Source: Desulfobulbaceae bacterium | GTDB taxonomy: Bacteria; Desulfobacterota; Desulfobulbia; Desulfobulbales; Desulfobulbaceae | NCBI GenBank assembly: GCA_024763055.1 | Contig: JANTGH010000023.1 | Coordinates: 1 to 33,780 of the forward strand | Length of the DNA: 33,780 nucleotides | Direction of reading: 5' to 3' | Shown here: positions 4,351 through 32,073 of the stretch, one piece after another | How positions within the stretch are numbered: the stretch's first letter is position 1 | How the letters are laid out: every line of letters starts with the position of its first letter | Position numbers and translations under genes: made by a program | Notes under the pieces: model-generated | What the model was told of the DNA's origin: nothing | Seen by the model: the letters and a program-made list of their open reading frames with translations, nothing else | Database searches by the model: none

Positions 4351-4573
4351 TGTGATGGAGTGTATTATGACGACCGGACCCGTATTTCGTCTATTTGGTC
4401 GTTCTGTTTTTACAAAATGATGAAAAAGTACACGAACAATTATAGGCTTCAAATTGTAATCCATTAACCGTAAAAGGGAAAAAGAAATCATTGATTCTGG
4501 AAAAATATGGATGGATCCTGAGCCGTGTGTTACATTTTCAACAACTCGATTTTACAAAGAAGAAGGCGTATGT

Positions 4574-7959: not shown

Positions 7960-7962
7960 AAC

Positions 7963-8313: not shown

Positions 8314-8315
8314 AA

Positions 8316-8672
8316 ATGGATAAAATGCAAAAATTTGCCCCTACCTGCGGATTGTCTGCGAGGGAAATAGGGATCATAAAATATCAAATCAAAAATAAGA
8401 TAAACCTGCAGCTTCCTATATTGCCGGAATCCACTGAAATGAAATTATTTCTTCAAGGAAGAGACGCATGGACGTTCAGGTGGTATCTGCAGAATAAGAA
8501 GTATCCTATATCCTCAAGGGATCCTATATCCCTTAAGGTCGTCGTAAAATTGAAAAAGGAATTTCATCAGTATCAAGAGACAACGCAGTATAAATTTTCA
8601 TGTACGGTCAAGATGGTAAAGGATGACCTGTATCATCCAAAAATAAGGATCAAAAACGTATCCCGGCCATGA
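8316..8672 (+). CDS. Hypothetical protein, third gene of the AT-rich islet
   Basis: A 118-residue basic protein that I do not recognise. It has no membrane segment or signal peptide. Lys and Arg are frequent, especially in the C-terminal half (KLKKEFHQYQETTQYKF, MVKDDLYHPKIRIKNV), and the predicted strands alternate, so a nucleic-acid or protein binding role is possible but unsupported. A ribosome site AGGA lies at 8303-8306, about 9 nt before the ATG. It lies 2 nt downstream of the alpha-CTD-like gene and overlaps the next gene by 4 bp (ATGA), so the four genes form one translation-coupled set. Confidence 0.55.
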   Translation: MDKMQKFAPTCGLSAREIGIIKYQIKNKINLQLPILPESTEMKLFLQGRDAWTFRWYLQNKKYPISSRDPISLKVVVKLKKEFHQYQETTQYKFSCTVKMVKDDLYHPKIRIKNVSRP

Positions 8673-10006: not shown

Positions 10007-10599
10007 GGCGCGGCAAATAACCCTGCGTCTATAGGCGGATTAAACGCCGCCCCGGAAAAGATCAGCCGGGTGAAGGCCCCTTCTCCTTCATGGATGGTCA
10101 CGGAATCCAGCAGCCCCGGCCGATCGGAGAGTTTCAGCTCAATTGCGCTGATGAAAACGGCCATTCCCTTATCTTTTGGAACCAAACGCACGGCTTGACC
10201 GTCGCGGGTCACGGCAAAGGCCGCGTTATCGGTAAAACGTCCGTCCAGCCAGCCGCTGATTTCGGTCATCACCACCTGCATGGCATCCAGACGCATCCCT
10301 GTATCCTCAACAAACCGGCCGTTTTTTTCAATGAATTTCCTGACCCGTCCTTTATCCATCAGGAGGACGGAATGAAAGGGGCTTGTGTATTCCCAGCGCA
10401 GGGAATCCGGCGCCTTAAACAGAAACCGTCCCCGGGAAATAAGCGGCCGGACAAGGATTTTCAAATGCTTTTCCTGGGAAAAATCCGCCTGCACCGCCTG
10501 CACCCGGACAGGTTGAACAGCACTTCCACCGGCGGCCAATGCAATGACGGGCAAGATCAGGCCCGGCACAATCAGGAAAAATACTCGCAAAAAACGCAT
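10003..10599 (-). CDS. LolA-like outer-membrane lipoprotein carrier
   Basis: A 198-residue periplasmic protein with a signal peptide (residues 1 to about 23, ending ALAAGG) and the LolA fold pattern: FSQEKHLKILVRPLISRGRFLFKAPDSLRWEY, then VLLMDKGRVRKF and later FTRLIFSGAAFNPPID. LolA ferries lipoproteins through the periplasm in an open hydrophobic barrel. The paralogs in aryl-polyene loci are thought to carry the lipid pigment instead. The gene overlaps FabG upstream by 1 bp and the lipoprotein downstream by 4 bp, so all are made from one mRNA. A separate housekeeping lolA is expected elsewhere in the genome. Confidence 0.85.
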   Translation of the reverse strand: MRFLRVFFLIVPGLILPVIALAAGGSAVQPVRVQAVQADFSQEKHLKILVRPLISRGRFLFKAPDSLRWEYTSPFHSVLLMDKGRVRKFIEKNGRFVEDTGMRLDAMQVVMTEISGWLDGRFTDNAAFAVTRDGQAVRLVPKDKGMAVFISAIELKLSDRPGLLDSVTIHEGEGAFTRLIFSGAAFNPPIDAGLFAAP

Positions 10600-11336
10600 C
10601 AGATCATACCGCCGTTGACGGACAGAATCTGCCCGGTCATGTAGGAGGCGGCCTCGGAACAGAGAAAGGAAACCACCTTTGCCACCTCTTCCGGCCTGCC
10701 GATGCGGGCCATGGGAATCAGGGTCTTGATATGATCTTTGGGGGCCTCTTTGATCATGTCGGTCTCAATCAGGCCCGGTGCCACCACATTGACCCGGATG
10801 CCAAGGCGGGCCACTTCGCAGGCAAGGGCTCTGCTGGCGGCGTTCAAGCCGGCCTTGGCCGCAGCATAATTGGTCTGGCCACGATTCGGCATGAGCGAGG
10901 AAGCTGAAGAAATGGAGACAATCGAGCCTGCGCGCCTGCGCACCATTTTCTCCACAACCGGCCGGGTCATATTGTAAAAGCCGTTTAAACCGGTATCAAT
11001 AACCGACCGCCAGTTTTCCGGCGGCATCATCATAAACAGACCATCTTTGATAATCCCGGCATTGTTGACCAGGATATCAATTCGGCCAAACCGCCCTTCG
11101 ACATCCTCCACAATCCGCTCACAGCCCTCGGTATCTCTGACGTCAAACTGATTTATTTCACCTGTTCCGCCAGCCTCTTCAACCAGAGACAGTGTCTTTT
11201 CCGCGCCCTGCCTATCACCCATATAATTGATAACGAGGTGCCTGTCCGGACCGGCCAGCTCAACACAGATGGCCCTGCCGATACCCTTGCTGCCACCGGT
11301 AATGATGGCGATTTTTTTATTGTCCTGCCTGCTCAT
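10599..11336 (-). CDS. FabG-like 3-oxoacyl-ACP reductase
   Basis: A 245-residue short-chain dehydrogenase/reductase of classical FabG length. The cofactor motif TGGSKGIG lies at 13-20, NNAG at 91-94, and the catalytic Ser (SISS near 141-144), Tyr157 and Lys161 (NYAAAK) are intact. It should reduce 3-oxoacyl-ACP to 3-hydroxyacyl-ACP with NADPH, the step before dehydration to a double bond in each polyene extension round. It is the only ketoreductase in the window, so it probably serves all extension modules. It overlaps the dehydratase gene upstream by 4 bp and LolA downstream by 1 bp. Confidence 0.92.
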   Translation of the reverse strand: MSRQDNKKIAIITGGSKGIGRAICVELAGPDRHLVINYMGDRQGAEKTLSLVEEAGGTGEINQFDVRDTEGCERIVEDVEGRFGRIDILVNNAGIIKDGLFMMMPPENWRSVIDTGLNGFYNMTRPVVEKMVRRRAGSIVSISSASSLMPNRGQTNYAAAKAGLNAASRALACEVARLGIRVNVVAPGLIETDMIKEAPKDHIKTLIPMARIGRPEEVAKVVSFLCSEAASYMTGQILSVNGGMI

Positions 11337-11770
11337 TGTTCCCGTGCCTGAAAGAGCTGCAATGTGGCCCGACCGATAAGCGCATCATCCAGCCGCAGTT
11401 CACAGCTGATTTCCCGTAAATTTTCAAAGTTGTAGGTGTTCTCGGCGCGGACGATGACAGCGCCGCCCAGGGGAAGGATATCAACCAGAAAATCCGCATT
11501 TTTAATCGCCACCAGCCAGCCCATCTGGTTTGAATCCAGGCCCTGGGTCTGAATCCGGTCCCAGCCGTTGCACACCCCTGCCGTCTGCGCTGCCAGTTCC
11601 ACCAAAATCAAAGGATGCGCGCCGCCATCCCCGACCAGCGGCCAGGACTCGCTGACAACACACCGGGTAACAGCATGGCTGCTGTCAACCGCAATAACTT
11701 CATCGACAAGCAGCATGGGGCCTCTGTGGGGCAGCAGATCTTCCAGGCGCAGATTAGATATTTTCACCAT
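11333..11770 (-). CDS. ApeP-type 3-hydroxyacyl-ACP dehydratase (hotdog fold)
   Basis: A 145-residue single-hotdog protein. The opening LPHRGPMLLVDEV (His15) and VELAAQTAGV (Glu58 region) are the landmarks of the 3-hydroxyacyl-ACP dehydratases of aryl-polyene loci, here called ApeP type. It would remove water from 3-hydroxyacyl-ACP to form the conjugated trans double bonds of the polyene. It is the first gene of the minus-strand operon with FabG, LolA and lipoprotein and is divergent from the ACP gene at 12145. The 374-bp region between them must hold both promoters. Two other dehydratases of different types lie at 16720 and 22575. Confidence 0.85.
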   Translation of the reverse strand: MVKISNLRLEDLLPHRGPMLLVDEVIAVDSSHAVTRCVVSESWPLVGDGGAHPLILVELAAQTAGVCNGWDRIQTQGLDSNQMGWLVAIKNADFLVDILPLGGAVIVRAENTYNFENLREISCELRLDDALIGRATLQLFQAREQ

Positions 11771-12091: not shown

Positions 12092-12144
12092 TTTTTCTTA
12101 GCCCAAAATAAATACCCCTTTTTAACGTAGTGGATATAAAAAAC

Positions 12145-12414
12145 ATGAATAACGATCTCGTCGAAGAACTCAAAATAAAACTCATCGATATTCTGAACCT
12201 CCCGGATGTGACCCCGGAAGATTTTGATGAAAACGCCCAGCTTGTCGGCGGCGAATTAGGCATCGACTCCATTGATGTCCTGGAAATGGTAGTCATGGTG
12301 GAAAAAGACTACGGCATTGTCATTAACAGCCAGGAGGTCGGGGAAAAGGTCTTCTCCTCCCTGACCGCCCTTGCCGACTATATCCGAAAACACGCGCAGG
12401 ACACCCCTTCTTGA
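12145..12414 (+). CDS. Acyl carrier protein 1
   Basis: An 89-residue, acidic, helical acyl carrier protein. The phosphopantetheine attachment site is Ser42 in GIDSIDVLEM. The spacing and the following helix (VVMVEKDYGI) are typical of ACPs of aryl-polyene loci. The ATG at 12145 is preferred; a GTG at 12130 in frame would add five residues but neither has a strong ribosome site. It overlaps by 3 bp with the TTG start of the fused ketosynthase, so ACP and its partner are translationally coupled. It should carry the growing chain during polyene extension. Two other ACPs lie at 17076 and 33407. Confidence 0.92.
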   Translation: MNNDLVEELKIKLIDILNLPDVTPEDFDENAQLVGGELGIDSIDVLEMVVMVEKDYGIVINSQEVGEKVFSSLTALADYIRKHAQDTPS

Positions 12415-14585
12415 ACAAGCAACAGGTCTACATCAGAGGGACCGGCATTGTCAGCCCCCTCGGGGGCTCAATTGCTGAAACTCTTGCGGCTTTACGGGAA
12501 AACAGATCAAAAGTTGCGCCGCTTGATCTTTTTCCGCTTCTCCAGGGCAGCCCATTGCCGGTCGGTCAGGTGCGCGGCATCGACACTGAGCCGACACTGC
12601 CCCGAACCCATCAGCTGGCCCTGACTGCGGCCACCCAGGCCATGGCCGGTTACGATCGGCCCCCTGATGCCATAGTCATCGGCACCACCACCGGCGGCAT
12701 TCCGACGACCGAACAGCTACTCCGGGACGGAATCACGGACAAAAATCAGTACCGTTTGCATGGCCTGAACACGGTGGCGGACGAGCTTGGCCGCCATTTT
12801 AACTGCAGCGGACCGGTCCTCACGGTTTCCACGGCCTGTTCCTCGGGCGCGGTCGCCATTACCCTGGCCATGGAACTGCTGCGGGGCAGGCAGGCAGAAA
12901 ATGTTCTGGTCGGCGGGGTGGATTCCCTCTGCCGCCTGACCTATTTTGGTTTTCATTCCCTGCAGCTGGTCGATAAAAACGGATGCCGCCCTCTTGATAA
13001 AAATCGCCGGGGAATGGCCGTGGCCGAGGGAGCAGGCATGCTCCTGCTGAGCAGTGAAAAGAAAGCGGACACGCCGGTGGAACTGCTCGGCGCCGGTCTC
13101 AGCTGTGATGCTTTTCACCCGGCGGCGCCGCACCCGGAGGGAAAAGGGGCCCGAACGGCTATGCGGGCGGCGCTTGCGGATGCGGGTCTTTCCCCGAGGG
13201 CAATCGATTATATCAATCTTCACGGGACCGGTACCCCGGAAAATGACCTGGCGGAATCAAGGGCCGTGCGTGCGCTTTTCCCCACCCCACCCGCCCTCTC
13301 CTCCATCAAAGGCGCGACAGGGCACAGCCTGGCCGCAGCCGGCGCTATTGAGGCCGTGATTGCCTCGCTTTGTATTACTCAAGACCTGGTTCCAGCTAAT
13401 ACCGGTCTGAGACAGGTTGATCCCGACCTGAAGCTGCATCCTGTGACAAAACCGGAAGACAGACCGGTAACAGCCGTTCTCTCCAATTCCTTTGGTTTTG
13501 GCGGCAACAACGGCTCTCTTGTGCTGGCAAAATCAGGAAAATTTACCCAATCTACCTCAAAAAAAACAACCAACCCTCTTTCCATCCTTGGCTCGGCCTG
13601 CCTGACAGGCGCCGGAGACACTGCGGCAACTCTGGCCGGGCTGCTGAATGAAAAAAGTATTGTCGGCCAGGCGGACGATCAAGCCATTATTCAAGACCTG
13701 CCGCCACGACTGATCAGGCGCTTAAAAAGACTGCCGCGCATGGCGCTCTCCCTCGCCGTCAATGCCTATAACAGATCACAAAGCGGAAAAAAATCATTGT
13801 CCATCTTCATGGGCACCGGCTGGGGAGCGCTTTCCGAGACCTATGACTTTCTGGAGCGATTGACGACCTCCCAGGAGCTATTTCCCAGTCCCACCGACTT
13901 TGTCGGTTCCGTCCATAACGGTCCTGCCGGCCAGGTGGCCATGCTGCTTGAGGCCACCGGCGCCAACATCACCACCAGTGGCGGTGATTACTCCTTTGAA
14001 CAGGCCCTGATGGCGGCCGATCTTCTCCTTAAAGATGATGAAACCGGCGTGGTGCTTGGCGCCGATGAAGGCCATGCCATCCTCTCTCCCCTGTTAGACG
14101 CTTCCATAGAACCGCAACCACACGTTGAAAACCTTGCCGACGGCGGCGGAGCCCTGCATCTCGGCAAAATGCCGCGGAACAAGGGCCGGGCTTGTATCAA
14201 GCTCTGTTTTTTCCATAGCTGCCGGACAGATGGTCCCATCTCCTCTCTGATAAAAAAGCTGGGCGGCGCGGATACATTGCAGAGCGACTGCGGCCTTGTC
14301 CTGACCGGCATTCCGGCTGCCGCAAAAAAGTTGGGGGAAAAACAACTTGAACAGTTTATAAAACTTTCCTCCCTTGCCGCTCCCGTCAGCCGTTACCGCA
14401 AATATATCGGGGAATTTGCCTCAGCCTCGGCCGTAACGGCGGCACTGGCCGCCTCCTGCCTGGAAAGCGGACAGGTGCCGGCCCTACTCACCGGGGGCGA
14501 TCCGATCTCCCTGGAAAAGAATAAAAAAATCCTGATCCTTGGTTTGGGAGAATATATCACGGCCATGGAGCTGTACCGGCCATGA
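12411..14585 (+). CDS. Ketosynthase fused to a chain-length-factor-like domain (KS-CLF in one chain)
   Basis: The 724-residue protein starts with TTG overlapping the ACP stop. Residues 1-376 are a FabF-like ketosynthase with intact Cys143 (TACSSGA), His271 (HGTGTPEND) and His305 (KGATGHS). From about residue 388 to 724 a second, shorter ketosynthase-like domain begins anew (LSILGSACLTGAGDTAATLAG). At the place of the nucleophile this domain reads TTSGGDYSFEQAL, with no Cys, so it cannot condense and fits a chain-length factor. In known aryl-polyene loci these two are separate proteins that form a heterodimer setting polyene length. The C-terminal domain lacks the later active-site histidine motifs too. 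It overlaps the next gene by 4 bp. Confidence 0.87.
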   Translation: MNKQQVYIRGTGIVSPLGGSIAETLAALRENRSKVAPLDLFPLLQGSPLPVGQVRGIDTEPTLPRTHQLALTAATQAMAGYDRPPDAIVIGTTTGGIPTTEQLLRDGITDKNQYRLHGLNTVADELGRHFNCSGPVLTVSTACSSGAVAITLAMELLRGRQAENVLVGGVDSLCRLTYFGFHSLQLVDKNGCRPLDKNRRGMAVAEGAGMLLLSSEKKADTPVELLGAGLSCDAFHPAAPHPEGKGARTAMRAALADAGLSPRAIDYINLHGTGTPENDLAESRAVRALFPTPPALSSIKGATGHSLAAAGAIEAVIASLCITQDLVPANTGLRQVDPDLKLHPVTKPEDRPVTAVLSNSFGFGGNNGSLVLAKSGKFTQSTSKKTTNPLSILGSACLTGAGDTAATLAGLLNEKSIVGQADDQAIIQDLPPRLIRRLKRLPRMALSLAVNAYNRSQSGKKSLSIFMGTGWGALSETYDFLERLTTSQELFPSPTDFVGSVHNGPAGQVAMLLEATGANITTSGGDYSFEQALMAADLLLKDDETGVVLGADEGHAILSPLLDASIEPQPHVENLADGGGALHLGKMPRNKGRACIKLCFFHSCRTDGPISSLIKKLGGADTLQSDCGLVLTGIPAAAKKLGEKQLEQFIKLSSLAAPVSRYRKYIGEFASASAVTAALAASCLESGQVPALLTGGDPISLEKNKKILILGLGEYITAMELYRP

Positions 14586-15928
14586 GGATACTTCTCATTT
14601 CGCCCAACACCCTCACGGTCCCCTACCCTGTCTATCCCATCGGCCTTGATTATGTGGCCGGATCCATCAGGGATACACATCAGGTCCGTATCGCGGACAT
14701 GAACAGCTCAACACCCGGACAATTAGACGATCTTCTGAAAAATTATACGCCGGAGATCATCGGCATTGCCTGCCGCAACATCGACAACACGGATGAAGGT
14801 GACTGCCGATATTTCATCAGAAGCTACCAACAGCTTGTGAACCATATCAGAGGGCGGTGCCGGGCGATAATCGTCTGCGGCGGTGCCGGGTTCACCATCA
14901 TGCCGGACAGGATTTTCGCGGAGCTTGGCGCCGATTACGGCATCATCGGTGAGGGCGAACGCTTCGGCCGGCTGGTTGAGGCAGTGGCGAATGGACAGGA
15001 GCCGACCACAATCCCGGGAGTGATCTCTTCTCCCGGAACCAATGAACTGCCGCCGCCCTGGCCGGGGAAACAGGTTCGTGCCTTTCGGCCGGAATCTTCG
15101 CACGCTCGTTTCTATACCGACAAAGGCGGTATGCTCAATCTGCAGACCAAGCGGGGCTGCGCCTTTTCCTGCATCTACTGTCCCTATCCCCATATTGAAG
15201 GGAAAAAACACCGGCTGATCGATCCCGGTGAGGTGGCGGCAACAGCAAAACAACTGCAAAAAGCCGGAGCGCGATATCTTTTTATTACCGATTCCGCCTT
15301 TAACTCGGACATCAAACACAGCCTGTCCGTTGCCCGGGCCTTTAAAAAAGCCGGCCTGTCCATTCCCTGGGGCGGTTTTTTTGCGCCGATCAAGCTGCCT
15401 GATGATTATTTCACCCTCATGGCCGACTGTGGGCTGGCCCATGTGGAATTCGGTACGGAAGCGCTTGCAGAGGCCATGCTTACAACATATAAAAAACCCT
15501 TTCGCATCAAAGATGTCTTTACCGCCCACGCCCGGGCTCGGGCGGCGGGGATCCACACCGCCCATTACTTTCTCCTTGGCGGGCCGGGCGAATCACGGGC
15601 AACGATTACCGAGTCCCTGGATAATATAGAAAAACTTAACCGGGCGGTCTTGTTTTTCTTTATCGGCATCAGGATTTATCCCTGGACAGCGCTCTACGAT
15701 ATCGCCCTGCAGGAAGAAAAGATACGCCCCCGGACCAACCTGCTTGAGCCGGTCTTTTACGAGGCCGATGATATTGACCACAAAACCATTTGCAATATGG
15801 TCACAACCCGAGCGGCCGATCGCCTCAACTGGATAGTGGGATCAGGCGGAGAAAAAAGTGCTGAAATTGTAAAGAAACTCCATGACCGGGGCTTTACCGG
15901 CCCGCTCTGGGAACACCTTGCCCACTGA
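14582..15928 (+). CDS. B12-binding-type radical SAM enzyme of lipid biosynthesis
   Basis: A 448-residue protein with an N-terminal cobalamin-binding-like domain (MRILLISPNTLTVPYPVYPIG..., with IVCGGAGFTIMPD and GADYGIIGEGE) and a radical SAM core with C193, C197 and C200 (CAFSCIYC). Later landmarks are FFAPIKLP, EFGTEALAEAML and HYFLLGGPGES. Members in similar loci are annotated as lipid biosynthesis B12-binding/radical SAM proteins. Such enzymes commonly methylate unreactive carbons using methylcobalamin. There is no obvious DxHxxG motif. It overlaps the ketosynthase-CLF gene by 4 bp, so the polyene chain or its ACP-bound form is a reasonable substrate, but the reaction is unknown. It is followed by a 264-bp gap before the next gene. 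Confidence 0.85.
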   Translation: MRILLISPNTLTVPYPVYPIGLDYVAGSIRDTHQVRIADMNSSTPGQLDDLLKNYTPEIIGIACRNIDNTDEGDCRYFIRSYQQLVNHIRGRCRAIIVCGGAGFTIMPDRIFAELGADYGIIGEGERFGRLVEAVANGQEPTTIPGVISSPGTNELPPPWPGKQVRAFRPESSHARFYTDKGGMLNLQTKRGCAFSCIYCPYPHIEGKKHRLIDPGEVAATAKQLQKAGARYLFITDSAFNSDIKHSLSVARAFKKAGLSIPWGGFFAPIKLPDDYFTLMADCGLAHVEFGTEALAEAMLTTYKKPFRIKDVFTAHARARAAGIHTAHYFLLGGPGESRATITESLDNIEKLNRAVLFFFIGIRIYPWTALYDIALQEEKIRPRTNLLEPVFYEADDIDHKTICNMVTTRAADRLNWIVGSGGEKSAEIVKKLHDRGFTGPLWEHLAH

Positions 15929-16719: not shown

Positions 16720-17079
16720 ATGACCTTGAGACACACCGTTTCCTCCTTAGCCACCAATATGGTGGGTAAGATATGTATTCCGGAGGACTCTCCCTGGTTT
16801 AACGGTCATTTCCCCGATGAGCCCATTTTCCCGGGTATTGCTCAGATAGAGTTGGCTTGTGATCTCATTGCCGATGAGTTGCAGGTACCGCTACAGCTGA
16901 TCCGTCTGAGTCGGGTCAAGTTTAAAAAAATTGTTCGTCCGGGAGAAATTCTTGACATTCGCGCTACGTGCGGCAATAAAGAAAATTCATATACCTTTAC
17001 AATAATGAGCGAGGGACGAGAGACGTGTTCCGGCATGATCATCCTGCAACCCTCGACAACCACATCACAGTCGCCATGA
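16720..17079 (+). CDS. FabZ-like 3-hydroxyacyl-ACP dehydratase
   Basis: A 119-residue single-hotdog protein. The catalytic motif FNGHFPDEPIFPGI carries His30, and Glu44 lies in GIAQIELA, both at the expected spacing for FabZ/FabA-type dehydratases. The C-terminal KFKKIVRPGE is the family strand. It is a little shorter than FabZ (about 140-150), missing part of the N-terminus. No strong ribosome site precedes the ATG. It overlaps the following ACP gene by 4 bp. It likely acts on a chain held by that ACP and is a different subtype from the dehydratase at 11333. Confidence 0.85.
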   Translation: MTLRHTVSSLATNMVGKICIPEDSPWFNGHFPDEPIFPGIAQIELACDLIADELQVPLQLIRLSRVKFKKIVRPGEILDIRATCGNKENSYTFTIMSEGRETCSGMIILQPSTTTSQSP

Positions 17080-17339
17080 GCAACGACAGCACCACCGTGA
17101 CCAAAATCGCCGAAATCATCATCAACGAGCTCAAGCTTGAAGATGTCACCCCGGAAAGCTTTGATGCCGATCTCGATCTGGTCGATGAAGTCGGCATTGA
17201 CTCCATGGACCTGGCAACCATTGCCCTCGTTCTCCGGGACGAATACGGCATACGGATCGATGAGGACGATTATCCCAAGCTGACCACTGTCCGCATCATT
17301 GCCGCTTATATCGAAGACAAACTGAACAGCAACGATTAG
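17076..17339 (+). CDS. Acyl carrier protein 2
   Basis: An 87-residue acidic ACP with the phosphopantetheine site at Ser43 in VGIDSMDLATI. The start is the ATG at 17076, which overlaps the dehydratase stop (ATGA); the frame is open back to 17025 but that part lies inside the dehydratase gene. The helix II sequence after the Ser (LATIALVLRDEYGI) differs from ACP 1 and ACP 3, so each carrier probably docks with different partners. It is followed 3 bp later by the radical SAM gene, which makes an ACP-bound substrate for the radical SAM pair plausible. Confidence 0.92.
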   Translation: MSNDSTTVTKIAEIIINELKLEDVTPESFDADLDLVDEVGIDSMDLATIALVLRDEYGIRIDEDDYPKLTTVRIIAAYIEDKLNSND

Positions 17340-17342: not shown

Positions 17343-18395
17343 GTGCAGAGCCCGCAGAAGGAGTATAAATTCTCCGACATCATCGCCGATCCGGTTATTA
17401 GAAAGCGCTGGGAAAAGGTGCGTAGATATTTCTTTCTGCGTGAATCCACCTATGACATGAGCAACCGGTGCAATATCCGCTGCGAGGGATGCTATTATTT
17501 TACCGGTGAAAAACAGTTTGCCGACACCAACAGTGATCCCGCCGCCTGGCGAAATCTTTTCCTTGAGGAAAAGAAACGGGGCATAACCTTTGTGGTGCTG
17601 GCCGGGGCGGAACCGGCCCTGGAGCCGGAACTGTGCGAGGTTTGTTTTCAGGAGATTCCTCTTGGCGCCATTGCAACCAATGGCCTCAAACCCATTCCAA
17701 AACACATCGATTATCGAATGCACATCTCGGTATGGGGGAATGACCAGACCAGCCTTGCCGTTCGCAAGGCCCCGGACATGCTCCTCCGACAGATGGACAA
17801 CTATAAAAACGATCCCAGGGCCGTGTTCGTCTACACCTTTTCGCCGGTAAACATTGATGAGGCCCGGGAAGTCACCCAACTGCTGGCTGAAAACGGCCAA
17901 CAGATAACCTTTAACATGTTCTCGGCCCCTGTGGGCTACAACGGGCATCTGCGACATACCGCCGGGACGCTTGCCCACACCCGACAGGTCATGACCGAGC
18001 TGCTGTCCGAGTTTCCCGAAACCGTGCTCTTTTCACCGTACAATATTATCGCCCACACCGAAGAAAAGGGGTTGCATGAACTGTTTTCCTGCTCCTATCC
18101 CCGAATGAATCCGTCCACGGATATTGGCCTGGGCCGTTCCTTTCGCCAGTACCGCACCGATCTGCAGTGGGATCGGGATGCCGCCTGCTGCGTGCCGGAT
18201 ACCGATTGTGGCGACTGCCGCCATTATGCGGCCGGCAGCGCCGTGGTCACGGCCAGGATGTATCGCCATGCCACTGACCCCAAGACGTTTTCCGCCTGGC
18301 TGGACTATGTTGACACCTACCTTGCGGTCTGGGTACGTCGGTATGAGAAGGGAGACAACCTCTGCCCTGATCCGAAAATTCCGCCTGCTCAGTAA
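17343..18395 (+). CDS. Radical SAM enzyme with C-terminal auxiliary-cluster cysteines (paralog A)
   Basis: A 350-residue protein starting with GTG. The SAM-cluster cysteines are C43, C47 and C50 (CNIRCEGC). The usual GGEP SAM-binding motif is altered to GAEP near 88-91. A C-terminal group, C250, C282, C283, C289 and C292 (CCVPDTDCGDC), suggests an auxiliary iron-sulfur cluster of SPASM/twitch type. There is no B12 domain. It is clearly paralogous to the next gene: both share a CxxxCxxC-[YF][YF]F start, ATNGL, a SVWG/SLWG motif, Y-x-x-T/I-x-P, and the C-terminal cysteine group. Its place between ACP and ketosynthase genes implies action on a polyketide or its precursor. Reaction unknown. Confidence 0.83.
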   Translation: MQSPQKEYKFSDIIADPVIRKRWEKVRRYFFLRESTYDMSNRCNIRCEGCYYFTGEKQFADTNSDPAAWRNLFLEEKKRGITFVVLAGAEPALEPELCEVCFQEIPLGAIATNGLKPIPKHIDYRMHISVWGNDQTSLAVRKAPDMLLRQMDNYKNDPRAVFVYTFSPVNIDEAREVTQLLAENGQQITFNMFSAPVGYNGHLRHTAGTLAHTRQVMTELLSEFPETVLFSPYNIIAHTEEKGLHELFSCSYPRMNPSTDIGLGRSFRQYRTDLQWDRDAACCVPDTDCGDCRHYAAGSAVVTARMYRHATDPKTFSAWLDYVDTYLAVWVRRYEKGDNLCPDPKIPPAQ

Positions 18396-18444
18396 TCCCC
18401 TCTGCAACCCGGTATAAAACCAGAAAACTTGAAATAAAAATACA

Positions 18445-19443
18445 ATGATAACCGTCAGTTCCCTGCTCGATGACTACTGGTACGAGCGGTATAAAAAAAT
18501 ATCAAAACTCAACATCCGCAGCTCTATCTACGATGTGACCGACCGCTGCAACCTGCGCTGCAAGGGCTGCTTTTTCTTTTCCTCGGGCGAGCATGAACGG
18601 GCCTCTGAAGAAAAAGACGTGAACAAATGGCATGGCTTTGTTGAAAAAGAGATGGCGCGCGGCGTCAACCTGGCCATTCTCATCGGCGGCGAACCCACGC
18701 TCTGCCTGGACCGGATAGAGGCCTTTTACAAACGGCTGCCCACCTTCTGCGCCACCAACGGATTGATCAAGGTGCCGAGGGATCGTTTTCCGGACATGAT
18801 GGTCGGCCTCTCGCTCTGGGGTGATGCGGAAGATGAGAAAATCCTGCGCGGCAAGGACACCTTCAAGATCTCAAGCGCCAACTACGAGGGTGATCCCCAC
18901 GCCTATTACCTGTACACCATCACCCCGAAACAACTTGGAAAAACCGAGAAAATCATCAAAAAAATTCAGGATGTCGGCCTCAAGGTCCACATGCAGCTGC
19001 TGTCTAATGATGAAGGAGTGGACGGATTTTCCTGGCAGCCGGAAGAGCTTGTTGAGGTGCGGGCTGAAATGGATGACATGCTGGATAAATATCCGGGAAC
19101 AGTGATTTCATCAAAATACTACCATGAAGTCATCACCACCGGCAAAATGCTGGATCGAACATTCGGCTGGATGGAATGCCCCTCGGTGACCGAACCCATC
19201 GATAAGCGCAATCCCCGCCCGAAACGGCTGACCAACTTTATCCGCTGGGCCTCGGATTTGCAGACCATGCACCGCTGCTGCACCTCGGAGACCCGTGACT
19301 GTTCCACCTGCAAGGACGGCGCCGCCCACATGAGCTGGGTCATGGTCAACAAACGAGCCCACATCAAAACGAGCAAAGATCTGCAGAACTGGATCGAGGT
19401 GTACGAGATGTTCGCCAAGCTTTATCAGTTTATCCCCTGGTAG
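18445..19443 (+). CDS. Radical SAM enzyme with C-terminal auxiliary-cluster cysteines (paralog B)
   Basis: A 332-residue paralog of the preceding protein. The SAM-cluster cysteines are C35, C39 and C42 (CNLRCKGC), and the SAM-binding motif is intact as GGEP near 81-84. C-terminal cysteines C245, C278, C279, C286 and C289 (CCTSETRDCSTC) mirror paralog A with one residue difference in spacing, supporting a shared auxiliary cluster. It is 49 bp downstream of paralog A and 5 bp upstream of a ketosynthase gene, so all are in one operon. The two may act as a pair on one substrate, with paralog A having the weaker SAM motif. Function not known. Confidence 0.85.
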   Translation: MITVSSLLDDYWYERYKKISKLNIRSSIYDVTDRCNLRCKGCFFFSSGEHERASEEKDVNKWHGFVEKEMARGVNLAILIGGEPTLCLDRIEAFYKRLPTFCATNGLIKVPRDRFPDMMVGLSLWGDAEDEKILRGKDTFKISSANYEGDPHAYYLYTITPKQLGKTEKIIKKIQDVGLKVHMQLLSNDEGVDGFSWQPEELVEVRAEMDDMLDKYPGTVISSKYYHEVITTGKMLDRTFGWMECPSVTEPIDKRNPRPKRLTNFIRWASDLQTMHRCCTSETRDCSTCKDGAAHMSWVMVNKRAHIKTSKDLQNWIEVYEMFAKLYQFIPW

Positions 19444-19448: not shown

Positions 19449-20720
19449 ATGGACGACAGGAGCGTGGTCATCCTTGGCTATGATGCCATCTCCCCCTTAG
19501 GCATCGACCTGAAAAGTCAGTGGCAGGGAGCGCTGGCCGGACAAAGCGGCATCGGCCCGCTGACCCGTTTTCCTTTGCCGGAAGATTTCCCGGTCACTAT
19601 TGCCGGTCAGGTTCCCGATATTGACGATCCTGCAATTGAGAGCAAAAAATATCCCTTCCTCAGCGCCCGTCATCAGGCTGCCTGGAGCTCGCCGGTTTTC
19701 AAATACTCGATGCTCACCGTGGCCCGGGCGCTTGAGCAAAGCCGGATTGAAATAACCCCTGATATCGCGCCCCGGGTGGCCGTCACTTACAGCTCGGCTA
19801 TCGGCGGTGTGGATGCGGTGCTGCGAGCCGACCGTCGATTGCGTGAAAAAAAAAGACTCCCCCATCCGTACGCCAATCCCAACGCCTGCATCAATATGGT
19901 CGGCGGCAAGATTGCCATCCAGACCGGTGCCCAGGGCCCGATAACCACAACGATTTCCGCCTGCGCCACCGGCCTTACTTCGATCATTATCGGCGCCATG
20001 TTTCTTGCCCGGGGCAGGGCCGATGTAGCCATCTGCGGGGCAGTGGATTTTGCCCTGGTTGAACCCATAGTCGCCGGTTTTTATACCATGAACGGAGTCT
20101 ACATCCCGAAAAAGGGAAGGGAAAATGAGCCGCCGGAAACAACGAGCCGCCCATTTTCCATGGACAGACGCGGGTTTGTCATCGCCGAAGGAGCCGGAGC
20201 AATTATTCTGGCTTCTAAAACATTTGCCCAAAGCCATGACCTTCCCTATATTTTCGAACTTGCAGGCTGGGGCATGACCACGGACGCGCATCATTTTGTG
20301 GCCCCGCATCTTCCCACGGTGAAGCGGTGCGTAAACGATGCCATCCAGGATGCAGGCATCGCTCCGGCGGACATTGATGCCGTCAACGCCCACGCCGCCT
20401 CCACAAAGGTCGGCGACAAGGTGGAGTATGACGCCCTGCGGGCAGTCTTCGGCAAGAACGAAGAGTTGCCTCCGGTCACTGCCAACAAATCACTCATCGG
20501 CCATGCCATGGGCGCCTCCAGCGCCATTGAAACCATTTTTGCCCTGCAGGGCATGCGGGAAAATATGCTGCCGCCCACGATCAATTATACGCCGGATCCG
20601 GAAATTGCAATCAACTGCGTGAGCGAGGGGAAGAGGGTCGTCAACCAGGAGTTTATTCTGAAAAACTCCTTTGGATTCGGCGGCTGCAATGCCTGCGCGG
20701 TATTTAAAAATATCTCCTGA
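19449..20720 (+). CDS. FabF-like ketosynthase (first of a tandem pair)
   Basis: A 423-residue ketosynthase with intact triad: Cys172 (SACATGL), His314 (NAHAAST, where NAHGTST is usual) and His352 (NKSLIGHAMG). Other landmarks are RRGFVIAEGAG, MTTDAHHFVAPH and the C-terminal NSFGFGGCNA. It should condense malonyl-ACP with an acyl chain. The Gly-Thr to Ala-Ala change near the first His could affect the decarboxylation site or specificity. It is 31 bp before a related ketosynthase gene. In aryl-polyene loci extra ketosynthases are thought to be used for starter or special extension steps. It begins 5 bp after radical SAM paralog B. Confidence 0.9.
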   Translation: MDDRSVVILGYDAISPLGIDLKSQWQGALAGQSGIGPLTRFPLPEDFPVTIAGQVPDIDDPAIESKKYPFLSARHQAAWSSPVFKYSMLTVARALEQSRIEITPDIAPRVAVTYSSAIGGVDAVLRADRRLREKKRLPHPYANPNACINMVGGKIAIQTGAQGPITTTISACATGLTSIIIGAMFLARGRADVAICGAVDFALVEPIVAGFYTMNGVYIPKKGRENEPPETTSRPFSMDRRGFVIAEGAGAIILASKTFAQSHDLPYIFELAGWGMTTDAHHFVAPHLPTVKRCVNDAIQDAGIAPADIDAVNAHAASTKVGDKVEYDALRAVFGKNEELPPVTANKSLIGHAMGASSAIETIFALQGMRENMLPPTINYTPDPEIAINCVSEGKRVVNQEFILKNSFGFGGCNACAVFKNIS

Positions 20721-20751: not shown

Positions 20752-22017
20752 ATGAAACCGGCAAAAAACAGACGAGTATTTGTGGTCGGATACGATGCCG
20801 CCACCTGTCTCGGCAAAGACTTTGCCGCCACCTGGCAAGGCGCGGTGGCAGGCAGGGCCGGATTTCGTCGCCTGACCCGCTGCGCCACCAGCAGCCGCGC
20901 CGACGTGGTTGGAGAAATCCCGGATTGGGATCCGACCGACTTACCTTTCGTTGACCGCAAAGAGGCCTCGCTCTGGGACGCGGCCTACGTCTTCCTGACC
21001 ATGGAGGTCTGCCGCCGGGCGCTTGCACACGCCGGACTTGAAATGACGGCGGAAACAGGCCCCCGCACCGGCTGCCTGATCGGCTCGGCCTTAAACGGAA
21101 CCGATGCCTTTCGGGTCGCCATGGATAACTATGTCAACCGGGGCCCGTTCAAGGTCAGCCCCTACCTGCTGCCCAATGTCTGCGCCAACCTGCCGGCGGG
21201 CAAGGCCGGTATGCTGCTGGGTTTTACCGGGCCGATTTTTTCACCCCAGGGCGCCTGCGCCTCGGCAAACCATGCCATAGCAATCGGCGCCAGAATGATC
21301 CGGGACGGTGACTGCGACTTTGTCCTGGCAGGCGGCGTGGAAACCTGCCTGATACCGGAGATCATCCAGGGATTTGCCAACATGCTGGCTACCATCAAGG
21401 TCGGCCCCAAAGACCGGGCCCATACCGATCCGGCCCATGCCTCACGGCCCTTCAGTCTTGACCGCAAGGGCTTTGTGTTAGCGGAAGGCGCGGGTGTGCT
21501 GGTGCTTGCCGCAGAAGAGATGACGCTTGCGCATGGCCTTGCGCCCAAAGCTGAAATCGCCGGTATCGGCTGGAATTCCGATGCGCACCACTTTACCCGG
21601 CCCAACATGGAGACGGTCACCCGGGCCATGCAGGACGCCATCGAGGATGCGGAGATCAACGCCTCCGATATCGGAGCGATCAACGCCCACGGCACCTCGA
21701 CTCCCAAGGGTGATGCCACTGAGGCCGACTGTCTACGAAACATCTTCGGCAATAAAGTAGGCAAAATACCAATCTCGGCCAACAAGTCCCAGGTCGGTCA
21801 CAGCCTGGGTGCCTCCGCTGCAACCGAAGCAGCGCTGGCCATTGAGGCCATGCGCCAGGGAATTGTTCTACCGACGGTCAACCATATCCCGGACCCGGAG
21901 TTCAGTGATCTTGATGTGGTTCCCAACCAGACACGTCGCCATCCGCACGAGTTTGTGCTCTCCAATTCCTTTGGCTTTGGCGGCACCAACTGCTGTATTG
22001 TGTTCAAAGGAGTATAA
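20752..22017 (+). CDS. FabF-like ketosynthase (second of a tandem pair)
   Basis: A 421-residue ketosynthase with intact Cys169 (GACASANHA), His312 (NAHGTSTPKGDATE) and His349 (NKSQVGHSLGAS). It is similar in layout to its upstream neighbour (V[IV]xGYDA at the start, SDAHHFTRPN, NSFGFGGTN), so the two arose by duplication and have diverged. With the KS-CLF protein and DarB it makes five ketosynthase-fold domains in the window, four of them with an active-site Cys. Likely role: extension or starter condensation on one of the ACPs. It is followed by an 84-bp gap before the thioesterase. Confidence 0.91.
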   Translation: MKPAKNRRVFVVGYDAATCLGKDFAATWQGAVAGRAGFRRLTRCATSSRADVVGEIPDWDPTDLPFVDRKEASLWDAAYVFLTMEVCRRALAHAGLEMTAETGPRTGCLIGSALNGTDAFRVAMDNYVNRGPFKVSPYLLPNVCANLPAGKAGMLLGFTGPIFSPQGACASANHAIAIGARMIRDGDCDFVLAGGVETCLIPEIIQGFANMLATIKVGPKDRAHTDPAHASRPFSLDRKGFVLAEGAGVLVLAAEEMTLAHGLAPKAEIAGIGWNSDAHHFTRPNMETVTRAMQDAIEDAEINASDIGAINAHGTSTPKGDATEADCLRNIFGNKVGKIPISANKSQVGHSLGASAATEAALAIEAMRQGIVLPTVNHIPDPEFSDLDVVPNQTRRHPHEFVLSNSFGFGGTNCCIVFKGV

Positions 22018-22101: not shown

Positions 22102-22575
22102 ATGCGACCCAGACCATTCATCCCGGAGTTGCTCGATGGCTCCTATGTCAAAGATGGCAACAGCGGAAAAATATGGCACCGGTGCGAATTGCGCACCCTG
22201 TATGTGGACACCGACCGATCGCAGGTGGTCTATCACGCCAACTACCTGAAATATTTTGAGTTCGGCAGGGCATCGCTGATGCGTGAGGCCTCCTATCCCT
22301 ATAAAAAAATCGAAGAAAGCGGCTATATCTATCCCATCATCAAAACCGAGCTCAACTATTACACCCCTCTTTTTTATGATGACCTGATGTATATCCATAC
22401 CCGGCCCGGCGCCCTGGAACTGGTCAAGTTACAATTTGATTACCTGATAACAAGGGCTGACAATGGAGAAATCGTCTGTACCGGCTTTACCCGGCACTGC
22501 GCGGTCAGTTCAAACGGTATTCCCGTTGAGATTGATGACAAGACGAGAAAGCTCTGGCAGGAATTTCCCCGCTGA
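22102..22575 (+). CDS. Acyl thioesterase of the 4HBT/YbgC type
   Basis: A 157-residue hotdog protein. The motif YVDTDRSQVVYHANYLKYFEFGRASLM (35-61) is the signature of YbgC/FadM-like 4-hydroxybenzoyl-CoA thioesterases, with Asp36 or Asp38 as the expected catalytic acid; Gly of the usual DTDxxGxVYH is replaced by Gln. It would release or edit an acyl chain from ACP or CoA. In aryl-polyene loci a thioesterase of this sort is common and its place next to the PKS-type dehydratase fits. Ribosome site AGGG precedes the ATG. The stop overlaps the next start by 1 bp (TGATG). Confidence 0.88.
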   Translation: MRPRPFIPELLDGSYVKDGNSGKIWHRCELRTLYVDTDRSQVVYHANYLKYFEFGRASLMREASYPYKKIEESGYIYPIIKTELNYYTPLFYDDLMYIHTRPGALELVKLQFDYLITRADNGEIVCTGFTRHCAVSSNGIPVEIDDKTRKLWQEFPR

Positions 22576-23381
22576 TGACCGCAGTCCGCTTTCCCGTAAC
22601 CCTGGCAATCCAGCCCTGGTTTTATGACCATGCCTTTGGCGGCCGCGCAGTACTTCCCGCAGTTGAAACACTGCGTCTGCTGGCGGCCACGGTCAAAGAA
22701 TACTACCCGGAGATTGTTGTCCGGCACATGACAATGGCCCGGTTTGCCAGGTTTCTTGAACTGCCGCCTGAGACCGGCTCCATCAAGCTCATGGTCGAAT
22801 GCGCAAGAGAGGACAAAGGGGCAATACGGGCGGCGCTGTTCAGCCGGGTCAGGTTCAAGGCCATGCGCAGAATGATTGAACACGGCAGGGTTTTTTTCCC
22901 GGACACAGAGACGGTTGCCCATGGTGAAAATACCATCAGCACCCTGCCGATAAAAAAAATAATGAAAAAAATTTCCGCAAAAGAAATCTATACGAAACTG
23001 GTCCCGTTTGGTCCGGCCTATCAGACACTGACAGGAACTCTTTTTCTCTCGACCGAAGAGGCCCGGGGAACGTTGCAGGCGCCTTCCCTGCCGACAACCG
23101 GCCCGGGGACGGAACTTCTCGGCTCACCGTTTCCTCTGGACGGCGCTCTGCATGCGGCCTGTGTTCATGGACAACAATATGTTGATTTTATACCTTTTCC
23201 GGTGGGATTTGGCAAACGTATCATCCACAAACCGACCCGGCCGGGAAAGAGCTACAGTACTCTCATCACGGCCCGCGCACGAACCAGGGAAGAGCTGCTT
23301 TTTGATCTAAAAATTTTTGACGAAAGCGAAAAGATCTGTGAAAGCGTTACCGGCATCCGCATGCGACATGTTCTTTTTTGA
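22575..23381 (+). CDS. Polyketide-synthase-type double-hotdog dehydratase
   Basis: A 268-residue stand-alone dehydratase of the PS-DH type normally found as a domain of modular polyketide synthases. The first hotdog has His19 in DHAFGGRAVLPAVE, matching HxxxGxxxLP(A)xE. The second has Asp189 in PLDGALHAA and the family pattern YTKLVPFGPAYQTL around 139-152. Together these are the catalytic His-Asp pair. It would dehydrate a 3-hydroxyacyl intermediate. It is the third dehydratase type in the window and lies at the end of the long operon, overlapped by 1 bp with the thioesterase. It could handle a different chain length or a non-standard step (for example forming a cis or displaced double bond). 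Confidence 0.85.
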   Translation: MTAVRFPVTLAIQPWFYDHAFGGRAVLPAVETLRLLAATVKEYYPEIVVRHMTMARFARFLELPPETGSIKLMVECAREDKGAIRAALFSRVRFKAMRRMIEHGRVFFPDTETVAHGENTISTLPIKKIMKKISAKEIYTKLVPFGPAYQTLTGTLFLSTEEARGTLQAPSLPTTGPGTELLGSPFPLDGALHAACVHGQQYVDFIPFPVGFGKRIIHKPTRPGKSYSTLITARARTREELLFDLKIFDESEKICESVTGIRMRHVLF

Positions 23382-23772: not shown

Positions 23773-24582
23773 GTGGGCAAAAAAATCTTGCCACAACAAC
23801 CTATACCACAACAGGTTCGACAATCAAGAGGGAATAGAATCGACAACGTGCAGACACACAATCCCGAGGCCCGGCCTTGCGGCTGGGATTTTTTTGACAG
23901 GATCTACTGTATTTCCCTTGACGACCGCAGTGACCGGCGCTTTCAGGCAAGGGACCAGTTTGCCTCCATCAATCTGCTGGATCGGGTCGAGTTTGTTCTT
24001 GTCACGAGGCACCCGCTGAACAGGGAACAGGGAATTTTCGAATCCCATATCCAGTGTTTGAAAAGAGGCCTTGCCGCCGGCGCCAAAACCATTTTAATCT
24101 TTGAAGATGATGTTTTTTTCAAAAATTTTGACCATAACGCACTGACCAGAGCATGCCGGTGCCTGCACAAAAAAAAATGGAACGCGTTTTTTTTAGGCTG
24201 CATTACCTCGGGCAGCCGCAGAATAAAAAAACATGCTCTTGCGGCCGTCACCTATCGATGTCTGTCCCATGGCTACGCCGTTCACCATGATTTTGCAAAA
24301 AAAATCATTCGGGAAAAATGGCAGAACGTTCCCTACGACACCATGTTGAAGCGCCATAATACTGAATTTTACGCGCTCTATCCCATGTGCGCCTTTCAGG
24401 GACTTTCCAAAAGCGACAACCAGACGATGGCCATTGACCGGATGCGTCGTCTCTGCGGCGGCCTGCCCTTTCTTCAGCAAGTCAACGAATTCTACCAGAA
24501 CCATAAGCGAACACTTATTGCAACCCATCTCATTGGGCTGTTGCTCCTGGGCGCCCTGACAGTCAAATTATTATTGTACTGA
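23773..24582 (+). CDS. Family-25-like glycosyltransferase with C-terminal membrane anchor
   Basis: A 269-residue protein. Residues 42-56 (DRIYCISLDDRSDRR) and 88-115 (FESHIQCLKRGL... ILIFEDDVFF) match the LPS/family-25 glycosyltransferase pattern, in which EDD (111-113) binds the metal and sugar nucleotide. Later, CLSHGYAVHHDFAKKI and PYDTMLKR are also family-like. A hydrophobic anchor occupies about 247-268. The GTG at 23773 is the longest start but lacks a ribosome site; a GTG at 23848 with AGAGGGA upstream is an alternative that keeps the whole domain. It is 6 bp before the exporter gene. It could glycosylate the pigment or its lipid acceptor. Confidence 0.75.
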   Translation: MGKKILPQQPIPQQVRQSRGNRIDNVQTHNPEARPCGWDFFDRIYCISLDDRSDRRFQARDQFASINLLDRVEFVLVTRHPLNREQGIFESHIQCLKRGLAAGAKTILIFEDDVFFKNFDHNALTRACRCLHKKKWNAFFLGCITSGSRRIKKHALAAVTYRCLSHGYAVHHDFAKKIIREKWQNVPYDTMLKRHNTEFYALYPMCAFQGLSKSDNQTMAIDRMRRLCGGLPFLQQVNEFYQNHKRTLIATHLIGLLLLGALTVKLLLY

Positions 24583-24588: not shown

Positions 24589-27500
24589 ATGCTCAACACT
24601 CGTCTCCTGTCTATCGTTTTCCTGTGTATTGGTCTTTTTACGGCCACAGGACTGCTACGGCTCAACATCGACACGGATGTCATCCACTCGCTTCCCGCAG
24701 GTGAAAAAGTCATTTCCGACAGCCTTGATATCTTTGAACATCACCCGATTCATGACCAGATTGCCGTGGATATCGGAATCAATACGGATAATCCGGAAAT
24801 CCTGTCGGCATGCGGGATTTACCTTGAACAGGAAATGCGGGCAAGCGGCTTGTTTGCCAAGGTCGGCATGGATGATATCGGCGCGCTGATTCCGCAACTG
24901 GCTATCCAGGTGGCCGGGAATCTTCCTCTGCTCTTTTCCGCAGAAGAATTAAGACGGGATGTCGCGCCCCGCCTGGAACCAGACCGGATAAGCGAACGCC
25001 TCAACAATCTGTACACACAGTTGAATTCCATGGAATCCATCGGCCAGGCCCGGTTTATCCGTTCCGATCCCCTTGGGCTGAAAGACCTGATTCTTGCAAA
25101 AATGGCGCCGCTGGCGCCGACGCAGGGCGCCGAATTTTTCAAGGGACATCTGCTCTCCCGGGATGGCCGCCACCTGCTCGTCACAGCCCGGCCTCTTGCC
25201 GGCGGCACCGACACCACCTCCGCCCGAAAGATTTCCCGGCTGCTGCAGAACGCCGCCGGCAGGCTGGCAAAACAATACGCTGATCAGGGAATACGTGTAA
25301 CCCTTACTCCGGCGGGAGCATACCGGGCCGCCCTGGACAATGAACAAATCATTCGCCACGATGTAAATCTGGCGCTGTTGCTTGCCACATTGGGAATCGG
25401 CCTGCTGCTGCTTGTTTCCTTTCCCAGACCGCTGCTTGGCCTGCTCTCTCTGGTTCCGGCCCTTGCCGGGACATCGGCCGCCCTGTTTGTCTATTCCCTG
25501 CTGCATTCGGACATTTCCATCATGGTGCTGGGATTTGGCGGAGCGATTATTTCCATCACCGTCGACCACGGCATCGGCTACCTGCTTTTTCTCGATCGTC
25601 CCCATGAAACCAGAGGCAGGGAAGCCGCCCACGAAATACGGGCCATCGGCTTCATGGCCGTAATCACCACCATCGGCGCCTTTCTAATCCTCGGATTTTC
25701 CGGATTTCCCATTTTTTCCGAATTAGGCCAGTTCACGGCTCTTGGTGTTCTCTTCTCCTTTCTCTTTGTCCACACGGTCTTTCCACGAATTTTCCCGGTC
25801 ATGCCGGCGGCGGGCAAGCGCAGCCTGCCGCTGCAAAAGCTGGTCAACATCCTGTATAAAAGCGGCAAACCGGGAGCCGTTGCCGCCGCAGCGCTGGCCC
25901 TTGGCCTGCTCTTTTTTGCCAAACCACAGTTCCAGGTCAGCCTGAGCAGCATGAACACGGTCAGCCGGCAAACCATGGAGGAAGACGCGCGGTTTACAAA
26001 GACATGGGGCAATATCGGCAGCCGGGTGTATCTGATGAACAGGGCCGGATCCACAAGCGAACTTCAATCAAATAATGATGCGCTGCTTGCAAAGATAGAT
26101 TCGGATATTAGGCAGAATATTCTTGCCGGGGCCTTTGTGCCGTCAATGCTTTTTCCCGGAAACGATCTGGCAGAGAGAAATCTATCGGCCTGGCATAACT
26201 TTTGGGCAGACGACCGGGCAAAACAAACCAAAAAAGTGCTACTCGGCGTAGGGAAAAAACTGGGTTTTACGCCAGCGGCCTTTACCGATTTTCTGACTCT
26301 GCTTGAACAGGGATATACCGCCGCGCCACCCCCGATTCCGGCCCGCTATTACAAGCTGCTCTCCATAACAGAGAATACTTCTGCGGGCGGAAACGAATCC
26401 GGGCTGATTCAATTTATTACCGTTCAGCCGGGGAAAAAATATGACAGTGCTGCTTTTTTCGCCCGGTACGGCACAAAATACAAAATCTTTGACGCCCCGT
26501 TTTTCTCCAAACAGCTGGCAAACATCCTGTTTTCCACCTTTACGACTATGCTGGTGATTATCGGCAGCGGCCTGAGCCTGCTGCTGTTTTTTTTCTACCT
26601 CGACCTGCGGCTCACCCTGCTGACCCTGACCCCGGTCATCTTCGCCTATATCTGCACCCTCGGAACATTGCGGCTGCTGGGCCATACTTTAGACATCCCG
26701 GCCCTCATGCTTTCCATCATCATCCTTGGCATGGGGGTTGATTACTCCATCTTCTGTGTTCGCGCTCACCAGCGCTACAGAGATATCGACCACCCGGGCT
26801 ACGGGCTGGTGCGCTCCACGGTCTTTCTTGCCGGAGCCTCCACCCTGATCGGATTCGGCGTACTCTGCTTTGCCGAGCACTCCATGCTTCGCTCCATCGG
26901 CATTACCTCCCTGTTAGGCATCGGATATTCCCTGTTAGGCACCTTCCTTCTGCTGCCGCCCCTGCTGCATCGCTATTTCAACAACAATGGTCTCCCGAAA
27001 AAAAAGGGCGGAAAAGGGGAAGAACGGACAATCGGGCAGCGCGTTTGCGGCCGTTATCAAACCCTTGAGGCTTATCCCCGGATGTTTGCCCGGTTCAAAC
27101 TCCAGTTTGACCCCATGTTTAAGGACCTGCCGAAGATGCTGGCACAGGCGGAGAAAACCGATGCTCTTATTGATATCGGCTGCGGCTACGGGGTGCCTGC
27201 CTGCTGGTGTCTTGAATACTTTAAAAACGCAAGGGTGTACGGGATTGATCCTGATCCGGAACGGGTCAGAGTCGCAACCATCGCCACCGGCAGGCAGGGA
27301 AAAATTTTCCGGGCCTGGGCGCCTGATCTTCCCCTGATTCCAAATCCGGCGGATATTGTACTTCTTCTCGACATGCTCCATTACCTTGACGAGGAGAAAG
27401 TTCAGGCGCTTTTCAGGAGCAGTCGGCAGGCGCTTGCATCCGGAGGAATTCTCATATCACGATTTGTCATTCGCCCCGAGAGCAAACCATCATGGTCCTG

Positions 27501-32055: not shown

Positions 32056-32073
32056 TTTTCTTTTCTTCTCATT

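Follow-up and report, generated by a model that had tools for sequence, protein, structure and literature searches.

What do two radical SAM proteins do when their genes lie side by side, between a gene for an acyl carrier protein (ACP) and a gene for a ketosynthase? The question is raised by a stretch of 33,780 nucleotides (here called the window) from a Desulfobulbaceae bacterium, in which twin genes, rSAM1 and rSAM2, occupy this position. The pair is real and occurs widely. It is also uncharacterised: no paper on it was found in the open-licence literature, and neither protein has a characterised close homolog. Judging from the sequences, its probable role is to modify a chain bound to a carrier, as part of a lipid or polyene cluster of oxygen-avoiding bacteria.

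An aryl-polyene-like locus

The genes around the twins combine the parts of an aryl polyene cluster, with KS-CLF, ketoreductase (KR), dehydratase, ACP, ligase, thioesterase, LolA, and MMPL functions. By its genes the locus is of the aryl-polyene-like type, which agrees with the operon of polyketide genes described in the initial annotation. Its features are as follows.

1721..3088, minus strand: AMP-dependent acyl/aryl ligase, ApeH-like role
3085..4491, minus strand: second B12-binding radical SAM protein (median 79% identity in related loci)
10003..10599, minus strand: LolA-like carrier, ApeL role
10599..11336, minus strand: ketoreductase, FabG/FlxB-like, ApeQ role
11333..11770, minus strand: ApeP-like dehydratase
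12130..12414, plus strand: ACPb, second acyl carrier protein (PP-binding)
12411..14585, plus strand: ketosynthase with a second KS-like domain, an ApeO-ApeC-like KS-CLF fusion
14582..15928, plus strand: B12-binding radical SAM protein, TIGR04072 (rSAM_ladder_B12; 387.7 bits, cut-off 360)
16720..17079, plus strand: ApeI-like hotdog dehydratase (Pfam ApeI-like, 29.1 bits, cut-off 28.5)
17076..17339, plus strand: ACPc, acyl carrier protein (PP-binding)
17343..18395, plus strand: rSAM1, radical SAM protein of the GAEP type (350 aa, GTG start; 80 orthologous loci)
18445..19443, plus strand: rSAM2, radical SAM protein of the GGEP type (332 aa)
19449..20720, plus strand: KS1, FabF-like ketosynthase (active-site Cys and both His motifs)
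20752..22017, plus strand: KS2, FabF-like ketosynthase (active-site Cys and both His motifs)
22102..22575, plus strand: 4HBT/YbgC-type thioesterase (TIGR00051, 82 bits, cut-off 68.7), ApeK-like by position and syntenic
22575..23381, plus strand: double-hotdog PKS-type dehydratase (PF14765, PF21089)
23773..24582, plus strand: family 25-type glycosyltransferase-like protein, syntenic
24589..27669, plus strand: MMPL (RND) exporter fused to a SAM methyltransferase, ApeM-like with the methyltransferase added
27673..28515, plus strand: polysaccharide deacetylase-like protein (PF01522)

The LolA, FabG, and ApeP-like genes are divergent from those for ACPb, the KS-CLF-like fusion, and the TIGR04072 protein. 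The ApeI-like gene and ACPc overlap at the stop of the first and the start codon of the second, and gaps of 3, 49, and 5 bases separate ACPc from rSAM1, rSAM1 from rSAM2, and rSAM2 from KS1. This spacing is consistent with an operon, and it places the twins between an ACP and a ketosynthase, as had been described. Since KS1 and KS2 both keep the active-site cysteine and the two histidines, they are not a KS/CLF pair.

The B12 radical SAM gene at 3085-4491, whose product fits no curated family, has as neighbours a gene for a DAK/DegV fusion protein and that for the AMP ligase. A DarB/StlD-family ketosynthase (6247-7395) and, at the right end, a module of BtrH/DUF4872, ABC transporter, and ACP genes (30266-33676) are seldom common to the related loci that were fetched. 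The MMPL-methyltransferase fusion, a single protein of 1026 residues, is kept in many of them.

The twin radical SAM proteins

Both rSAM1 and rSAM2 are intact radical SAM genes with a CxxxCxxC motif (C43/C47/C50 in rSAM1, C35/C39/C42 in rSAM2), and as described they form a pair of adjacent radical SAM reading frames. Among 84,980 species genomes scanned, 269 relatives were confirmed, all of them close; the best 80 loci, which come mainly from metagenome-assembled genomes, were retained. Within these best 80 of 269 loci the motif is kept in 79 of 79 rSAM1 and 73 of 73 rSAM2 sequences (window included). Equally invariant in this set are five C-terminal cysteines in each protein: C250, C282, C283, C289, and C292 in rSAM1 (79/79), and C245, C278, C279, C286, and C289 in rSAM2 (73/73). 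Because all five are invariant in both lines, the matching of the two cysteine groups is not a matter of chance. In the same best 80 of 269 loci, rSAM1 carries GAEP in 77 of 79 cases and rSAM2 carries GGEP in 73 of 73; with each version lineage-wide, neither twin looks degenerate. The two proteins align at 27% identity over 320 residues (E 2e-37) and, by this sequence comparison, are paralogous. The initial annotation had seen paralogs with matching C-terminal cysteines, one with GGEP and the other with GAEP, and this description holds throughout the lineage.

Curated models do not name either protein. The Pfam Radical_SAM model aligns only with the N-terminal part of rSAM1 and rSAM2, at 23.4 and 24.8 bits against a gathering score of 29.5. 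Among NCBIfam models, no equivalog came near its cut-off, and neither twin matched the LipS1 or the LipS2 model at E 1e-3. A full SPASM domain has seven C-terminal cysteines and two auxiliary clusters. Each twin conserves only five C-terminal cysteines, and not the seven of SPASM.

Predicted folds

AlphaFold2 models were built on alignments of the window proteins with the fetched relatives, giving a pLDDT of 83.9 and a pTM of 0.87 for rSAM1, and 88.3 and 0.89 for rSAM2. Both are predicted to contain the radical SAM barrel, with Z up to 18 against radical SAM structures. In VIA-align searches, the best match of each model is BlsE (rSAM1: Z 18.1, rmsd 3.4, 261 aligned; rSAM2: Z 17.8, rmsd 3.6, 254 aligned), followed by SkfB, SuiB, anSME, and viperin; ChlB is also among the best fold matches. 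The alignment with BlsE covers residues 22-327 and 30-330 of the two twin models, and thus includes the C-terminal region. Foldseek gave TM-scores near 0.5 for both.

The initial annotation had proposed such models as a means of placing the cluster ligands. They do provide a Twitch-like fold; the cysteine-rich stretch itself, however, is modelled at low-to-middling pLDDT. In rSAM1 the values are 46-50 for residues 251-270 and 61-71 for residues 271-300, and in rSAM2 they are 70-77 for residues 241-290, below the rest of the model. The five invariant cysteines per twin, together with the fold matches, agree with the SPASM/Twitch-like C-terminal cysteines that had been suggested, and each protein probably holds one auxiliary cluster at its five C-terminal cysteines.

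Distribution and co-inheritance

The host taxa of the best 80 of 269 loci are mainly Desulfobulbales and Desulfobacterales. The cluster is also found in Chromatiaceae, in Thiorhodococcus and Allochromatium (L064, L067), with the order from the AMP ligase to the deacetylase unchanged. Among the best 80 of 269 loci, ACPc lies directly upstream of rSAM1 in all 77 that are testable; rSAM1 and rSAM2 are adjacent in 68 of 70, rSAM2 and KS1 in 57 of 58, and KS1 and KS2 in 50 of 53. The neighbourhood survey thus finds the twins together with these ketosynthases. Desulfobacter vibrioformis (L074) retains both twins, at a distance of ~7-9 kb from each other.

Orthologs of rSAM2 (>70% identity) are present in 19 of 247 genomes sampled from the phylum, and rSAM1 is present in 19 of those 19. 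Across 72 loci, the pairwise identities of rSAM1 rise and fall with those of rSAM2 (r = 0.85), a correlation at the sequence level that shows co-inheritance, not contact. Median identities are highest in the locus, among the proteins compared, for rSAM2 (86%) and ACPc (81%). A Desulfobacterota-like copy of the cluster occurs on a 5.8 kb contig (L071, JACNGQ010000165.1) of the Planctomycetota bin NIOZ-UU13; this placement may be a binning error.

Two old subfamilies and their lone relatives

Each twin type also occurs without its partner. Lone GAEP relatives are present in G015, G708, and G722, and lone GGEP relatives comprise four Planctomycetota proteins. In a phylogeny of the kind that had been recommended, rSAM1 and the lone GAEP relatives split from rSAM2 and the lone GGEP relatives with support of 100/99, although long branches meet in this tree and placements within each side are unsure. 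Because each twin groups with its own lone relatives, GAEP is a trait of a subfamily rather than a sign of decay, and the twins are anciently separated; a recent duplication of one twin gene is ruled out on the same grounds.

The lone rSAM2-type proteins of Planctomycetota lie at the following positions.

L138, 9581-10738
L139, near 9.7-10.9 kb, minus strand
L140, 5081-6196
L141, 9566-10663

All four (4/4) are in LipS1/LipS2 lipoate loci, and the loci read also contain lipoate ligase, GcvH-like, and HdrA/B/C-like genes; matches to the LipS1/LipS2 models were obtained for L140 and L141. LipS1 is found in 10 of 392 Planctomycetota, and the four genomes with lone proteins are all among those 10. 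The lone protein is a third, unnamed radical SAM protein beside the LipS1/LipS2-like genes. A term search of the main text of the LipS1/LipS2 paper (PMC10332631) returned no mention of Planctomycetota.

The GAEP-type lone relatives stand near P450 and carbamoyltransferase-like genes, with no ACP in view. In one genome a lone GAEP-type gene is duplicated on two contigs (L148, 4919-6034; L149, 7498-8622), beside P450-like and methyltransferase genes, and the L149 neighbourhood also has a carbamoyltransferase-like gene.

Ammonia lyase and the starter unit

For the function of the twins, an unusual starter or a modification of the chain had been suggested. The initial annotation had also noted a missing ammonia lyase and proposed that the twins could replace the ammonia lyase route. 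The first of these last two statements is correct for the genome as a whole: the assembly that contains the window, which is 97% complete, has no PF00221 ammonia lyase. The second fails. PF00221 is found in 10 of 22 twin-bearing genomes; the copy in G250 is a true histidine ammonia lyase. Four genomes (G126, G073, G036, and G045) have an aromatic ammonia lyase on the same contig as the twins and within about 16 kb of them. The genes in these sister loci are listed here.

L151, 7626-9188: aromatic ammonia lyase
L152, 4692-6227: aromatic ammonia lyase
L153, 15386-16942: aromatic ammonia lyase
L154, 504-2114: aromatic ammonia lyase

These lyases stand among the AMP ligase, B12 radical SAM, and related genes of the locus, and score below the NCBIfam cut-offs for histidine and tyrosine ammonia lyases alike. 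G122 has one within a fragment of the cluster, on a different contig from the twins. Since the twins occur both with and without an ammonia lyase, they are not its replacement. For the sister loci, the presence of the lyase points to an aryl starter. In E. coli, 4-hydroxybenzoate is the predicted starter of the aryl polyene (PMC8253772), and described aryl polyene loci therefore need no ammonia lyase. Chorismate lyase as a source of 4-hydroxybenzoate is ruled out here, as PF04345 is absent from the genome of the window and from all 22 twin genomes.

A proposed function and its alternatives

Linkage, conservation, the Twitch-like fold, and the lipoate context of the lone relatives argue for twins that act on a chain carried by ACPc. 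LipS1 and LipS2 are two radical SAM proteins that together form one lipoyl synthase, with a carrier-bound acyl chain as substrate (PMC10332631); by analogy, such neighbours of the lone relatives may be counted in favour of ACPc, whose synteny with the twins would not in itself prove that it is the substrate carrier. The sequences and motifs, the invariance of the cysteines, the layout of the operon, the co-inheritance, and the class of fold are shown directly; from these lines together we infer a substrate bound to ACPc, a pairing of the twins, an extra cluster in each, and the type of reaction. Two observations speak against this reading: the lone GAEP-type relatives have no ACP in view, and the cysteine-rich stretch is the less well modelled part of each twin. 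The tentative model, to which we give a little less than an even chance, is a Twitch/SPASM-like obligate pair in a FASII-type pathway of anaerobes that carries out C-H functionalisation without oxygen on the ACPc-bound chain. The two anciently separated subfamilies would act as an obligate pair in the aryl-polyene-like pathway, either as a heterodimer or in sequence. In each twin, the [4Fe-4S] cluster at the CxxxCxxC motif would generate a 5'-deoxyadenosyl radical, with one further cluster probably bound by the five C-terminal cysteines. The substrate would be an ACPc-bound acyl or aryl-polyene intermediate, from which hydrogen would be abstracted either ahead of elongation by KS1 and KS2 or between their steps, leading to oxidation or another C-H functionalisation without oxygen, so that radical chemistry would stand in for oxygen-dependent tailoring. 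A wider proposal seems doubtful: that this is a new two-protein radical SAM system for oxygen-independent C-H chemistry on an ACP-bound polyketide, within an undescribed family whose Planctomycetota sHdr/lipoate members would also work on carrier-held acyl chains.

BlsE acts on a small molecule. As the best fold match, it favours a reading in which the twins make or modify an aryl or other starter as a free small molecule, for example from an amino acid, before the ACP stage, and the nearby AMP ligase and the lack of both aromatic ammonia lyase and chorismate lyase in the genome of the window point the same way. This reading is nevertheless unlikely, given the lyases in the twin loci of four genomes and in the cluster fragment of G122; its strong form, lyase replacement, cannot explain twins that are present with and without the enzyme. 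That the pair are SPASM-like maturases, which would equip some protein or peptide encoded in the locus with a cofactor or crosslink, is also improbable. In its favour, the best fold matches include SkfB, SuiB, anSME, and ChlB, and small ORFs without an assigned function lie at 7657-8672, but these ORFs, unlike the twins, are not seen in syntenic loci, the Pfam search found no PqqD-type recognition domain, and the invariant partners are ACPc and the ketosynthases. It is quite improbable that only one twin is catalytic, with the other as a scaffold or electron-transfer partner. GAEP in place of GGEP might weaken SAM binding by rSAM1, and LipS1/LipS2 offer a precedent for two radical SAM proteins in one synthase; however, the radical SAM and C-terminal cysteines are kept in both twins without exception, and GAEP is found as well in rSAM1-type enzymes that occur alone.

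A ladderane-type pathway, with the twins as counterparts of Kuste3342/Kuste3343, the radical SAM pair of anammox FASII clusters (PMC2649909, PMC4790861), is highly improbable. Its attraction is that the protein at 14582-15928 passes TIGR04072, that clusters of this kind were proposed for Kuenenia and Desulfotalea (Rattray 2009, PMC2649909), and that in anammox-type Planctomycetota loci, including G338 (Kuenenia-like by gene order), the TIGR04072 protein, 32-35% identical to that of the window, adjoins another radical SAM gene. That neighbour, however, is a cysteine-rich, SPASM-like protein (KKCNLRCLYCYSS) that differs from the twins in motif and cysteine layout, with 18% identity and generic profile similarity only. 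Among 392 Planctomycetota, the twin pair is present in G247 only, and the anammox-like genomes with TIGR04072 clusters have no twin match at E 1e-12. From these TIGR04072-bearing loci, the equation of the twins with Kuste3342/3343 and DP1855/DP1853 (Rattray 2009) is rejected for the anammox genes. In addition, D. psychrophila yielded no ladderanes (PMC2649909). Heterologous expression gave no new product, and the Kuste3342/3343 proteins were undetected (PMC2649909, PMC4790861).

Comparison with known systems

Sulfate reducers and their relatives thus have a widespread cluster with a strictly co-inherited radical SAM pair that curated family models leave unnamed. If the twins modify ACP-bound chains, they would bring an anaerobic tailoring route to the aryl polyene field, and would explain the radical SAM genes in anaerobe loci tagged ladderane or aryl polyene. 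The comparison also sets twin-bearing loci apart from true anammox clusters, a separation of practical weight, since loci of Desulfobacterota are labelled "ladderane" by automatic tools (PMC9902471). With the anammox/Desulfotalea FASII clusters (PMC2649909, PMC4790861) the window shares a TIGR04072 B12 radical SAM protein, multiple FabF-like ketosynthases, FabG, and FabZ-like, MMPL, and deacetylase-like genes. Of its radical SAM proteins, then, the window shares the B12 protein with those clusters and not the twins, the second radical SAM protein of the anammox clusters being the other, SPASM-like one.

LipS1/LipS2 resemble the twins in being two radical SAM proteins, and lone relatives of rSAM2 lie in their loci, but neither family model, LipS1 or LipS2, recognises the twins. 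BlsE, a Twitch radical SAM enzyme (PDB 7vob), is the best overall match in fold (Z about 18) at ~15% identity, and belongs to the blasticidin pathway, without an ACP context.

A gene-for-gene comparison can be made with E. coli apeA-apeR (PMC8253772). Shared are ketosynthases, including a KS-CLF, a ketoreductase, ApeI- and ApeP-like dehydratases, ACPs, an AMP ligase, a 4HBT thioesterase, LolA, and an MMPL exporter. The initial annotation knew of no such radical SAM pair in described aryl polyene loci, and the E. coli cluster bears this out: its genes include no radical SAM gene, and the term is absent from PMC8253772. Beyond the E. coli set, the window has the twins and two B12 radical SAM proteins, together with an additional ACP, two more FabF-like ketosynthases, and the MMPL-methyltransferase fusion. 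The ACPc-twins-KS1-KS2 module is thus an addition relative to the E. coli ape cluster.
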